Assembly (NCBI GenBank): GCA_021731365.1
Contig: JAKFXL010000003.1
Span: 1 to 64,000 of the forward strand
Length of the DNA stretch: 64,000 nucleotides
DNA from: Gammaproteobacteria bacterium
GTDB lineage: Bacteria; Pseudomonadota; Gammaproteobacteria; Tenderiales; Tenderiaceae
Direction: 5' to 3'
Under the pieces are notes generated by a model, which was not told the origin of the DNA, made no database searches, and saw nothing but the letters and a program-made list of their open reading frames with translations. Position numbers and translations under genes: made by a program. Shown here one piece after another: positions 59,109-62,546 of this stretch (the first letter of the stretch is position 1; every line of letters starts with the position of its first letter).

Positions 59109-59756
59109 CTAAAAACCACGCAATACTAATCGCTCTAGCGCCAATGAATTGGATTCGTCAGCACCAAAAAATGCGGTGTTGATTGAATCTTGATCCATAC
59201 CGTCGGGTAACAATAATAAAACCTTACCCTTCAGTACCTCGTCACCACGTGTCTCCCACATATTCAAAAACTGCTGTTGGGTAAAACGGCGATTGCCCCA
59301 TGAAGGGTCAGCCAGCACTACACTACCATCGGCACCGATACCCCGGATCACAGAAAAGTGATCATCATCGCGATAACGCAAATAGGCAATCGCCGGTGTT
59401 TTGAGTTTGCGTAGCTGCTCAAAGTTGAGCGCCACCCCCGCGCCCTTGAGACCATAGGGGCGCACCACCTCAGCCATGTCGCTAAAGGATGCTGCGCCAT
59501 CCTTGGCCATCGTCTCCAGCAGCGCCGCTTCCGTCACATCAAAACCGTAAAAGCCATTCATAATCGTCGCTACGGATGCTGCACCACAGGAGTAATCCAA
59601 ATCCTGTTTGACGACGTTGGCATCACGTAGATCTTTCCAGCTCTTCACGACAATTGCACCCTTGAGCGTAGCGGTACTAATCAGGGCATCGGCTGCTGTT
59701 GCGGCGCAAACGTACAGCCCAAGCAGAGAGGCAATGACAATTCTGTTAAAGCGCAT
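59109..59756 (-). CDS. Secreted stand-alone C39 peptidase (FapD-like)
   Basis: The product is 215 residues from the ATG at 59756 (MRFNRIVIAS), with AAGG upstream. A signal peptide (residues 1-22) sends it to the periplasm. The C39 triad is complete: DLDYSCGAAS with Cys57 (Gln51 as oxyanion-hole residue), DDHFSVIRG with His133, and VLADPSWG with Asp150. There is no ABC-transporter part, unlike bacteriocin exporters. This layout is that of FapD of the Pseudomonas Fap amyloid system. It overlaps the preceding gene by 11 bases and is last in a cluster with a leader-bearing Gly-rich peptide and a barrel-like protein; that peptide is the likely substrate. Confidence 0.85.
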   Translation of the reverse strand: MRFNRIVIASLLGLYVCAATAADALISTATLKGAIVVKSWKDLRDANVVKQDLDYSCGAASVATIMNGFYGFDVTEAALLETMAKDGAASFSDMAEVVRPYGLKGAGVALNFEQLRKLKTPAIAYLRYRDDDHFSVIRGIGADGSVVLADPSWGNRRFTQQQFLNMWETRGDEVLKGKVLLLLPDGMDQDSINTAFFGADESNSLALERLVLRGF

Positions 59757-60642
59757 CGTTAACCTTAACTGTTTGGCCGATATGGCTGGCAATTTCAGTA
59801 CTGATGTTGTCGAAGAGATTCAACGAAGCATCACGCAGCAACGTGGTTAAATAGAGTCCGGTATCCGACTCAACAAGCTGGGTGTACTCCTCCAGCTCAT
59901 CATCCGATACAGAGCGATACGCATAAACCATACTGAGTTGAATGAATTGACGGACTTGGGGCAAGGACTGCTCGCGCATCTGTGCCAGCATCTGCACTAT
60001 CTCATCATCAGCCATCTTTTTATCCGCTGGCACAATCCGATTCATATTTTTCATTATGGCGCTGGGTACCATCATCTGCACCTCAACCATGCTCTCGGTC
60101 GCCTGCTGTGCTCTATCGAGCCGCTCGACCAATGCCAGTCGTTGTGGTGACGGCTGCGACAACATGGAGTTGGCAAACTGCATCATCTCCTGAAATGCCT
60201 CGGGAGTCTGGGCCTGCAATTCCAGCGCCGTCATCTTTTTAGAAAGCGGGCGGTCCAGCAGTGCCACAACTTCTGCATAACGCTGGGCGTCATAACGCTT
60301 TTCAATAAAGCGAACCAGCGCAGGTTTGGTTTTAACCGGGTCAAACGATTGTAAAAAGGTGTCCCTAAATTTGTAAAACTCCTCTTGCCCAACAGGGGGG
60401 GGTGGCTGTTGGTCAAATCCCATTGCCACCATGGCAGGCAATTGCTCGAGCATCTCATCCATGCCGGACGCCGCCACGATTTGTGTAACCATCGCAGATC
60501 GGGTTTGTTTCTCTGCGCTGTTTTCTGTCGTTGTTTTGGAATCGGCATCAGCCTGAGAGATGGATGCGGATGAAGCGGCAAAGGCAGCGCTGTTTGAGAA
60601 TGCGGCGATGATGCAAACGGTTATGAGGATTTTTTTGAACAT
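59746..60642 (-). CDS. Periplasmic helical protein of the C39/peptide cluster
   Basis: The product is 298 residues from the ATG at 60642; AAGGA 9 bases upstream favours it over the ATG at 60651. A signal peptide (MFKKILITVCIIAAFSNSAAFA, in part) precedes an all-helical domain (MVTQIVAASGMDEMLEQLP, FIEKRYDAQRYAEVVALL, RPLSKKMTALELQ). The pattern resembles DUF2059-like periplasmic proteins. Its stop lies within the start of the C39 gene, so both are coupled. By position it could be a chaperone or recruitment factor for the exported peptide. This role is inferred only. Confidence 0.6.
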   Translation of the reverse strand: MFKKILITVCIIAAFSNSAAFAASSASISQADADSKTTTENSAEKQTRSAMVTQIVAASGMDEMLEQLPAMVAMGFDQQPPPPVGQEEFYKFRDTFLQSFDPVKTKPALVRFIEKRYDAQRYAEVVALLDRPLSKKMTALELQAQTPEAFQEMMQFANSMLSQPSPQRLALVERLDRAQQATESMVEVQMMVPSAIMKNMNRIVPADKKMADDEIVQMLAQMREQSLPQVRQFIQLSMVYAYRSVSDDELEEYTQLVESDTGLYLTTLLRDASLNLFDNISTEIASHIGQTVKVNDAL

Positions 60643-60680
60643 GTTTAGCATTCCTTGGGGCAGATGGTTGTTAGGTTGAA

Positions 60681-60705
60681 ATGGTGCGCACAGCACACCC
60701 TACAT
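60681..60705. repeat. Palindromic intergenic repeat, copy B
   Basis: TGGTGCGCACAGCACACCC followed by TACAT, similar to the sequence at 43131-43153. It lies in the 176-base gap between the small membrane gene and the helical periplasmic gene. Confidence 0.55.
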
Positions 60706-60818
60706 GGCCAAATCAAATACATTACTTGCCACTCCATCAAGCAGTACAGTGCTTTGTGGCACATGAAATTCGACCTACACCACTGGATGTTTCACGATAA
60801 CAAGATACGCAGATCCCA

Positions 60819-61040
60819 TTAATTATTTTTGACGTGGGCAAGCCAATGGTAAAAAATGGTTATAAGAAGCGCAAGAATAAGTGAAACGCCAATGCAAGCA
60901 AAAGCAGTTATTGATGCCCCAACCCCCCCACCAATATTCGGATAGTTATCCTTTAAATACAAAAAAAATCGATTACCAAGCGATAAAAATACTAATATTA
61001 ATGCAATTACAAGTGTCGATGAAAAGACAGTATGAGACAT
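60819..61040 (-). CDS. Small two-helix membrane protein of the peptide cluster
   Basis: The product is 73 residues with a very strong ribosome site (AGGAGGAGG) before the ATG at 61040. It has two hydrophobic helices (STLVIALILVFLSLG and AFACIGVSLILALLITIFY) joined by a loop with a Gly-rich turn (YPNIGGGVGAS). Small membrane proteins with two TM helices next to bacteriocin genes are often immunity proteins, and that is one possible role here; an export accessory is another. No family recognised. It follows the Gly-rich peptide gene after a long hairpin. Confidence 0.6.
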   Translation of the reverse strand: MSHTVFSSTLVIALILVFLSLGNRFFLYLKDNYPNIGGGVGASITAFACIGVSLILALLITIFYHWLAHVKNN

Positions 61041-61060
61041 ATATCAGCCTCCTCCTATAA

Positions 61061-61102
61061 TGGTAGCCCCACGCTTTTATTGTATAAAATGCGGGGCTAC
61101 CA
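61061..61102 (-). promoter_or_regulatory. Long hairpin between the peptide gene and the next gene
   Basis: TGGTAGCCCC (61061-61070) pairs perfectly with GGGGCTACCA (61093-61102) and the stem continues with CGC/GCG and TTTTAT/ATAAAA. No T-run follows on the minus strand. It is more likely a leaky attenuator or an mRNA-stabilising end that favours the peptide over downstream genes. Confidence 0.7.
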
Positions 61103-61127
61103 CTCTAAACAAAACAACAGAAAATAA

Positions 61128-61517
61128 TTACCAGCGAGATGACAAGCCGCTTATGGCACCACCAACTCCGGCTCCAACAGTTGCGCCTAATGCAGGATTA
61201 ACAAAAAATCCACCTACAGCACCGCCGGCTACACTGCCCGCAAAGGCAGGCCAACTCCAATTGCTACCGCCAGCAAAGGTGGAGGATGCGTACCCAACCC
61301 CACCACCAACAGCACCCCATCCAGCGCTCACGAAATTGAACCATGCTCCTTCCGTGTTTTTCATTTCCTGATCAGAAAGCGTTGCCACTTCCATCGTATT
61401 GCCTGAGTCAAATGCAAACGCCATATCCTTATCTTCAAAAGAACCGGCCATTGCTGATGTTGCACCAAAGGACATGGCGAGGGTAAGGGCCAGAGAAGTA
61501 CCTGTCAATTTTTTCAT
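61128..61517 (-). CDS. Gly-rich exported peptide with Sec signal plus double-glycine-like leader
   Basis: The product is 129 residues from the ATG at 61517 with CGGAGA upstream. Residues 1-24 are a Sec signal (MKKLTGTSLALTLAMSFGAT, then SAMA). Residues about 42-58 (EVATLSDQEMKNTEGA) have the look of a class II bacteriocin leader: L-S-x-x-E-M, then a small-residue pair (GA in place of GG). The remaining 71 residues are Gly/Ala-rich, aromatic at the front (WFNFVSAGWGAVGGG), with many GxxxG steps and no Cys, like pore-forming class IIb bacteriocins or an amyloid subunit. The neighbours are a barrel-like protein and a periplasmic C39 peptidase. Activity is unknown. Confidence 0.7.
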   Translation of the reverse strand: MKKLTGTSLALTLAMSFGATSAMAGSFEDKDMAFAFDSGNTMEVATLSDQEMKNTEGAWFNFVSAGWGAVGGGVGYASSTFAGGSNWSWPAFAGSVAGGAVGGFFVNPALGATVGAGVGGAISGLSSRW

Positions 61518-61553
61518 TTTAATCTCCGTATCAAAATATTTATTGGTTGATCG

Positions 61554-62546
61554 TTACTGGTTTTCTATCTCACTACGGTTAGTGTTTTCTGTAGCGTCAC
61601 CTCCTGTTTGGTTGTTGTTAATTGAAAAACGGCTGGGGAATTTATACAAAAACGTTACTCCAATCTCAGCACCGCTATCACCCGTTACATCACTGCGGCT
61701 ACTCAGTTGCAGGGTGGTCTGTTTGCTCCAGGCGTAACCCACTCCGAACTCCAGTTGTGTTTTGGTAGTACGGATGCCTTGATATTGGCCATCGATCTCA
61801 TCACGTTGTTGCCAGCGCCATTGCAGACCGGAGGTAAGCGTGACTTCGTGGTTGACGGCAAAGCCGATAGTGGGGTTGATGAAGAGTAGATCGCCGGGGT
61901 TGATGCGTTGGCTGCCGACGTCGCGTGTGGCGTTGTGGCGATAACCGGTGGTGAGCGACAAGACCAGTGGATCGATGGCGCGATAGGTGGTGAGGCCGAT
62001 CATGCCGCTCTTGCCGTGCACCAGCTCATTGCCTTCGGCAACTACATTTTCAGCCAGTGCCAGTTCGGCAAACATAAGTAGTGCGGGGGTTTTGTTGTCG
62101 TTTGAAAAGCGATGATTGATACCGATCCAGGCGTCTGAAAATTTTTCACTGCTGCTGGCGGTGGGGCCATCGGCATCGAGTGTGCGTGTGCTCTGTGCAA
62201 TTGCGCCGAGGCGGGCGAATAGTTCTGTGTCCAGGCTCATGCCATAACGTACGCCGGACGAGAGTGCGAGCAAATCTAAGTTTTGCCGGGCTTGGCCTAC
62301 CGCAACAGGTACGGAGATAAATTGGCCGGGACCGATTTGAATAGTGCCATAACGGGAGTCGACGTTGCGCCGGTCACTATTGGCGTACACAAAATTGATA
62401 TCCGCACGCCACCGTTTTTCGGCAGTGAGCAAATCCTCAATGGTAAGAGGTAAGTCCGCGTGAGCAACAGGCAATGCAACTGTACAAAAAAATAGTACCG
62501 CAATGACGTTGCCACGCAGTCTGAGGATTGATCGTTCCATGATCAT
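61554..62546 (-). CDS. Outer-membrane beta-barrel-like protein of the peptide cluster
   Basis: The product is 330 residues; ATG at 62546 or 62540. A signal peptide (VIAVLFFCTVALPVAHA) is followed by a short helical segment (LTIEDLLTAEKRWRADINFVY, in part), then alternating amphipathic strands to about residue 305, e.g. LALSSGVRYGMSLD, IGLTTYRAIDPLVLSLTTGY, EVTLTSGLQWRWQQ, TQLEFGVGYAW and AEIGVTFLYKF, the last ending in Phe-like barrel strands. A polar tail follows. It looks like a 12-14-stranded barrel. First gene of the cluster; by analogy with FapF it could be the exit channel for the peptide downstream. No family motif was recognised. Confidence 0.6.
   Translation of the reverse strand: MIMERSILRLRGNVIAVLFFCTVALPVAHADLPLTIEDLLTAEKRWRADINFVYANSDRRNVDSRYGTIQIGPGQFISVPVAVGQARQNLDLLALSSGVRYGMSLDTELFARLGAIAQSTRTLDADGPTASSSEKFSDAWIGINHRFSNDNKTPALLMFAELALAENVVAEGNELVHGKSGMIGLTTYRAIDPLVLSLTTGYRHNATRDVGSQRINPGDLLFINPTIGFAVNHEVTLTSGLQWRWQQRDEIDGQYQGIRTTKTQLEFGVGYAWSKQTTLQLSSRSDVTGDSGAEIGVTFLYKFPSRFSINNNQTGGDATENTNRSEIENQ

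Follow-up and report, generated by a model that had tools for sequence, protein, structure and literature searches.

A probable haemocin/Nap-type bacteriocin cassette with a stand-alone C39 peptidase in a Tenderiaceae genome

How might a peptide that carries both a Sec signal and a double-glycine-type leader leave the cell when the C39 peptidase encoded with it is itself secreted and no ATP-binding cassette (ABC) exporter lies beside it? The question is raised by five minus-strand genes in a 64,000-nucleotide stretch of a gammaproteobacterial genome (family Tenderiaceae; assembly GCA_021731365.1, contig JAKFXL010000003.1, positions 1 to 64,000), the whole of which we refer to as the window. 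We consider it highly probable that these genes form a bacteriocin cassette of the haemocin/Nap type, in which Sec takes the precursor across the inner membrane, the C39 peptidase cuts it in the periplasm and the released core exits through a FapF-like outer-membrane barrel. The original prediction for this locus had proposed the same route, which is now supported by a conserved cassette, by the pattern of leader and core, by the FapF fold of the barrel and by a haemocin plasmid of identical build.

Gene content of the cassette

The five open reading frames (ORFs) claimed for the minus strand were all found where they had been placed; the gene for the helical protein is among them, but its start needs correction, probably to 60651 or 60642. 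The features are as follows.

61554..62546, minus strand: outer-membrane beta-barrel with predicted FapF fold but lacking the N-terminal coiled-coil domain of FapF; 330 amino acids, signal at approximately residues 1-30 (...VAHA/DLPLTIEDLL)
61446..61517, minus strand: Sec signal of the precursor, residues 1-24 (MKKLTGTSLALTLAMSFGATSAMA)
61344..61445, minus strand: double-glycine-type leader of the precursor, residues 25-58, ending in LSDQEMKNTEGA; identified by conservation in 37 precursors
61131..61343, minus strand: predicted exported core of the precursor, residues 59-129 (71 amino acids), 26% glycine, first residues WFNFVS
60819..61040, minus strand: 73-residue protein with two transmembrane (TM) segments, candidate immunity protein by its position
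59746..60651, minus strand: periplasmic helical protein, DUF2059-related, predicted accessory, absent from most cassettes (present at 10 of 49 loci)
59109..59756, minus strand: secreted stand-alone C39 peptidase of the NapP-type clade, predicted leader peptidase (PF03412, 4e-20)

Among the five proteins, Pfam gave a strong match in the last gene alone (Peptidase_C39); matches to the others were weak. Promoter and terminator scans yielded nothing beyond chance, and a search within the host genome did not find a second copy of the window peptide.

Leader and core of the precursor

The 129-residue precursor begins with a Sec-type signal (MKKLTG...SAMA/GS) and, 34 residues further on, reaches the end of a second leader (...LSDQEMKNTEGA/WFNF). 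This tandem of a Sec signal and a bacteriocin-like leader, which the original prediction had read from the window peptide, is borne out among its relatives: nearly all have Sec-type N-termini (two listed rows start past the Sec part, through start choice or truncation), and leader positions are nearly fixed in 37 aligned precursors. Counting back from the predicted cut, methionine at -7, threonine at -4 and glycine at -2 occur in 37/37, glutamate at -8 in 36, leucine at -12 in 35, serine at -11 in 34, glutamate at -3 in 31 and alanine at -1 in 30. Near-fixed residues at -12, -8, -7, -4, -2 and -1 make up the pattern known from the double-glycine leaders that C39 enzymes cut. Among 4938 six-frame ORFs of the C39 loci, the motif was found 35 times; it is not there by chance, because all 35 occurrences are precursors in loci with a C39 gene.

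Past the predicted cut site, the information in the alignment falls steeply. Mean identity between loci is 48% over the last 25 residues of the leader (18% when shuffled) and 24% over the first 45 residues of the core (21% when shuffled), the latter being near random. At two loci with paired precursors, the leaders are 92% and 96% identical and the cores 18% and 26%. Judged from these alignments, a conserved leader joined to a variable core has the look of a constant tag for shared machinery with exchangeable cargo.

Two loci have precursors with longer cores (96-110 amino acids; L121:1657-2118 and L128:6933-7517) whose charged C termini are not of the Gly-zipper kind and which the usual leader precedes; effectors of more than one type may use the machinery. 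At two further loci, C39 and barrel are intact and a nonsense codon stands at leader position -3: an in-frame TAG in Limnohabitans (L104:7297-7503) and, in both paralogous peptides of Helicobacter apodemus, a TAA with an ATG just behind it (L123:974-1438). Silencing of the cargo by these codons is possible. As a parent family for the peptide, the NCBIfam BLB8/JUQZ-1 "ocin" family was rejected for want of a convincing link.

The outer-membrane barrel

The claim of a barrel-like outer-membrane protein held up, and the family is not that of an unrelated transporter. Its AlphaFold2 model (predicted local distance difference test score, 82) has approximately 12 long strands, and the first 18 Foldseek matches in the PDB are all FapF (E values of 9e-15 to 3e-10). 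A hidden Markov model (HMM) of the barrel family matched FapF alone among PDB sequences (3e-5), and the window protein shares 29% identity over 112 residues (6e-9) with a FapF-like barrel in a relative of the same family. In the model, the barrel follows the signal peptide after just a short helix, the N-terminal coiled coil being absent; the FapF model itself gave no match to the window barrel protein.

A FapF fold raises the possibility of Fap-like functional amyloid export, in which the Gly-rich core would polymerise outside the cell, and a C39 peptidase that resembles FapD (78.9 bits) points the same way. We judge this very unlikely. The C39 and the barrel fall outside the FapD and FapF model cut-offs, the C39 belongs to a separate clade, and the cores have neither Fap repeats nor a high content of asparagine plus glutamine (4% in the window core, a median of 6% across cores). 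The AlphaFold2 model of the precursor is helical at a low confidence (57) and is a weak hint at most. The amyloid element of the original prediction is not supported, and membership in the Fap amyloid systems was rejected on curated cut-offs, asparagine plus glutamine content and C39 clade.

The C39 peptidase

The last gene encodes a 227-residue stand-alone protein that matches Peptidase_C39 at 4e-20, and the cassette contains no ABC exporter. Its start is codon 13 of the longest ORF (ATG, 59756), and the proposed Cys57, His133 and Asp150 correspond to residues 69, 145 and 162 in longest-ORF numbering; in the same numbering, Gln63, Cys69, His145 and Asp162 are invariant in 16 relatives. A secreted C39 enzyme with intact Cys/His/Asp and no exporter fused or adjacent, as first described, is therefore confirmed.

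Against the NCBIfam models, the window C39 scored 78.9 bits for FapD (cut-off, 330) and 71.4 bits for FilB (cut-off, 475); by these scores it is related to both and a member of neither. In a C39 tree, it falls within a clade of 59 rows (support, 97/99) apart from FapD-like and FilB C39s, and bit scores split likewise (176 to 339 within the clade versus at most 129 outside). The same clade holds the Neisseria C39s that adjoin hisS. In 4 of the 8 genomes tested, the stand-alone enzyme is the sole C39, and therefore no C39-ABC exporter could replace it there. The host genome has another C39-domain protein (G000:C44:3603-3980; open frame of 324 amino acids) with a weak Pfam match (26 bits).

Conservation of the gene set and possible exchange of cargo

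We searched 369 genomes of the class with the helical protein and, using an alignment of four C39 sequences, 84,980 species genomes; this yielded several relatives of the cassette, some partial and some complete, and then 49 C39 loci related to that of the window. A barrel is present at 33 and a precursor at 37 (4 of them broken or partial), with at least one of the two at 38. Where at least 2.6 kb upstream of C39 is available (36 loci), 32 have a barrel, a precursor or both, the two being present together at 29. Among the hosts are Marinospirillum, Oceanospirillum, Shewanella, Psychrobacter, Thauera, Delftia, Tepidimonas, Neisseria dentiae, Cardiobacterium and Helicobacter, which places the cassette in Beta- and Gammaproteobacteria and in Helicobacter. 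In the genus of N. dentiae, the same 10 of 46 genomes have both C39 (E < 1e-70) and barrel (E < 1e-45), nine with a leader-bearing precursor and the tenth with a degenerate trace of one; in the other 36, none of the three is convincingly present. The co-occurrence on which the original prediction had staked its case was thus found, and in these 46 genomes the peptide was not seen without C39 and barrel.

These distributions bear on a simpler account, in which the C39 would serve periplasmic maturation in general, whereas the peptide would lie next to it by coincidence and be secreted in an ordinary manner, for example, as an inner-membrane Gly-zipper protein. A weak Gly-zipper match of the peptide (0.04) and the few C39 loci without a peptide fit that account. 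It is rendered extremely improbable by leader conservation that is confined to C39 recognition positions and by the joint occurrence of C39, barrel and precursor across the genus of N. dentiae and across phyla.

Cores also appear behind another kind of leader. The core model also picked up short open frames that lack a Sec signal in four Neisseria genomes. Three of the five Neisseria places fetched hold plain double-glycine precursors (e.g., MYIILDENEMNQVSGG/WVANAVGGIAGAYGAGYGYLAGGG...) followed by a hydrophobic protein of 51-58 residues; at the remaining two, the listed ORF is in another frame. One plain-leader precursor is 53% identical over 78 residues (9e-8) to a Sec-type precursor of Marinospirillum, and therefore one core type occurs behind both leader kinds; the window core does not align to that type. 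Two plain-leader precursors exceed the NCBIfam cut-off of the bacteriocin leader model TIGR01847.

Mobile and decaying forms were also seen. A 6.3-kb mobilizable Acinetobacter plasmid (L192, NZ_CP114260.1, positions 1-2033) carries barrel, precursor and C39, the barrel spanning the record start, and one contig (L011) begins with a transposase-like fragment at the place expected for barrel and precursor. A phage or viral origin was rejected: viral_contigs held no relative, and the two phage-collection matches are of the ABC type.

Accessory genes

Between precursor and C39, at least one small TM-containing ORF was found for 29 of the 35 precursors examined. The two-TM gene of the window has a G+C content of 34.7%, versus 50-52% in neighboring cassette genes, and its 73-residue product did not align with the one neighbor compared; that it is an immunity protein is plausible from its position alone.

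Eight of the 12 members of the helical protein family match PF09832 (best, 2e-9). The window copy itself does not, and the family profile matches the DUF2059 structures 3oao/2x3o; from these matches, the protein appears to be a distant DUF2059 relative. Because most of its homologues lie elsewhere, away from any C39, we rejected it as a marker of the system. One locus (L047:7485-11290) has two tandem DUF2059-like lipoprotein genes, an intact C39, a truncated barrel and no precursor, and has the appearance of a decaying cassette.

Proposed route and role

The simplest reading of these parts is export by Sec, a periplasmic C39 cut behind EGA and an exit by way of the barrel. We infer the cut site and the order of steps as follows. 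The Sec signal would carry the precursor over the inner membrane and be removed by signal peptidase; the periplasmic C39 would cut the double-glycine-type leader after EGA; and the freed Gly-rich core would exit via its dedicated FapF-like barrel. The leader would be a constant tag read by shared machinery, and the core would be exchangeable cargo. Given the parallel with haemocin and the pattern of the cargo, that core is most likely an antibacterial, membrane-active peptide, for which the small TM protein would be the immunity partner and the DUF2059-related protein an optional periplasmic helper.

Several observations weigh against this reading. Position -1 is glutamate in 5 of 37 precursors, which is unusual for C39; barrel and precursor are missing at four flanked C39 loci (L102, L131, L134 and L135; L131 and L134 have C39 fragments only); and the host genome also codes two C39-ABC-type proteins. 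The resemblance to class IIb bacteriocins named in the original prediction was seen as a match of the window core to TIGR03949 (lactobin A/cerein 7B), but at 16.8 bits it stays below the cut-off of 21.5. HmcC, of the haemocin locus, is on the nap side of the C39 tree on a long branch; its placement is unsure, and we do not claim clade membership for it. Finally, gonococcal Naps have no detected antimicrobial activity and act in autolysis (PMC11798529); given these data, killing of competitors would not be a safe default.

The last point favors a self-directed role, in which the core would leave by the same export route and act on the producer's own population as a Nap-like programmed-death or signalling peptide. 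Judged by the homology of its C39 and barrel, the nap island of Neisseria is the closest experimentally studied relative, and silencing of peptide genes by nonsense codons in some relatives would suit such a role. Nevertheless, we regard it as improbable: haemocin, of identical build, is a bacteriocin; hypervariable cores with varying TM partners are the usual pattern of bacteriocin and immunity pairs; and one core type is shared with plain double-glycine bacteriocin-like peptides.

Comparison with known systems

The Fil system of Acinetobacter (FilB C39, FilC) likewise has a stand-alone C39, with 71 bits between the window C39 and the FilB model; it differs in that FilB C39s form a separate clade. 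No Sec plus double-glycine-type precursor was found within 1.5 kb at 12 FilB loci. Fil membership was rejected on the bit score and the clade, and so was the idea of a Sec plus double-glycine leader as a general FapD/FilB-like trait (1 of 43 loci within 1.5 kb).

Fap (FapABCDEF) shares a periplasmic C39, a trimeric 12-strand FapF barrel and Sec-routed substrates (PMC5557850). Fap subunits have no canonical C39 leader, and the target of FapD is unknown (PMC5557850). Unlike Fap, the window barrel lacks the coiled-coil domain, and the substrate is not an amyloid of asparagine/glutamine repeats. Fap had been named as the nearest parallel; haemocin and nap are closer. At one locus of the window's family (L007:1151-1501 and L007:2206-2730), two secreted proteins with a Sec signal followed by a canonical double-glycine leader (LADGELAAMRGG, VDATELNSIRGG) adjoin a FapD-like C39 and a FapF-like barrel, and are candidate substrates of the FapD-like enzyme.

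With class II bacteriocins exported by C39-ABC proteins, the cassette shares leader positions -12, -8, -7, -4, -2 and -1, Gly-rich helical cores and, in Neisseria, a related core behind a plain leader. It differs in that a Sec signal precedes the leader, which is not at the N terminus, and in that the C39 is secreted as a protein of its own, no ABC exporter being encoded in the cassette.

The nap island of Neisseria gonorrhoeae comprises napF, napABC, napI, napH and napP, with napP next to hisS (PMC11798529). Besides C39s of the window's clade, hisS-adjacent Neisseria loci have barrels of the same family (1e-109 or better; the barrel of a fourth genome lies just beyond the stretch examined) and precursors with a Sec signal followed by LSQKEMKETEGA, of the leader form LSxxEMKETEGA; in a comparison of leaders only, these precursors read Sec plus ...PMQLAELSQKEMKETEGA. 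The nap paper describes GG motifs, periplasmic cutting by NapP and export by NapF; its text does not mention "Sec" or "signal peptide" and suggests NapH for inner-membrane passage (PMC11798529). Sec would be a simple answer to how Nap-type peptides may cross that membrane. In contrast to the window core, mature Naps are short (16-36 residues) and cationic, and a DUF2059-like gene is not reported there. Two PLSDB records labelled as N. gonorrhoeae plasmids (NZ_CP119142.1 and NZ_CP119140.1) are, at 2.17 Mb, chromosomes, each with three C39 places of at most ~62% identity to the query.

Haemocin (hmcDCBAI) is built in the same way. The annotation of plasmid p250 of Avibacterium paragallinarum (6.3 kb, NC_005245.1) lists HmcD, a C39 peptidase, an AAA ATPase, a haemocin structural protein and an immunity protein, and the plasmid reportedly encodes haemocin production, as the title of Terry et al. 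2003 states. HmcD matches the window-type barrel HMM at 5e-28 (hhalign probability, 98.8), the p250 C39 has a signal peptide and matches the cassette C39 HMM at 8e-37, in the haemocin precursor a Sec signal precedes VLSQKEMSEVKGG, a canonical double-glycine leader, and the locus includes an immunity gene by annotation. It differs from the window in having an AAA ATPase gene, in lacking a DUF2059-like gene, in its short, Cys-containing core after GG and in its C39 (HmcC), which is no more than a distant relative.

Haemocin and the Naps, which have been studied separately, are thus two known examples of this kind of system. As far as the literature shows, the pairing of a Sec signal with a double-glycine leader, the wide spread of the family and the cargo shared with plain double-glycine peptides have not been joined; the original haemocin papers may state part of this. 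We lean, by a narrow measure, toward a general, largely unrecognised and ABC-independent secretion pathway for Gram-negative bacteriocin-like peptides, made up of a Sec signal plus double-glycine leader, a periplasmic C39 and a FapF-like barrel. If true, the pathway would extend over Beta- and Gammaproteobacteria and Campylobacterota, exchange cargo with bacteriocins that use ABC exporters and have haemocin and the Naps as special cases, and removal of the leader in the periplasm would clear the peptide to pass through the barrel. For periplasmic C39 peptidases, the cassette gives a concrete signature of their substrates and, in Sec plus LSxxEMxxTEGA, a recognisable tag for unannotated bacteriocin-like peptides in Gram-negative genomes; it joins haemocin, the Naps and dozens of unannotated loci as one family.

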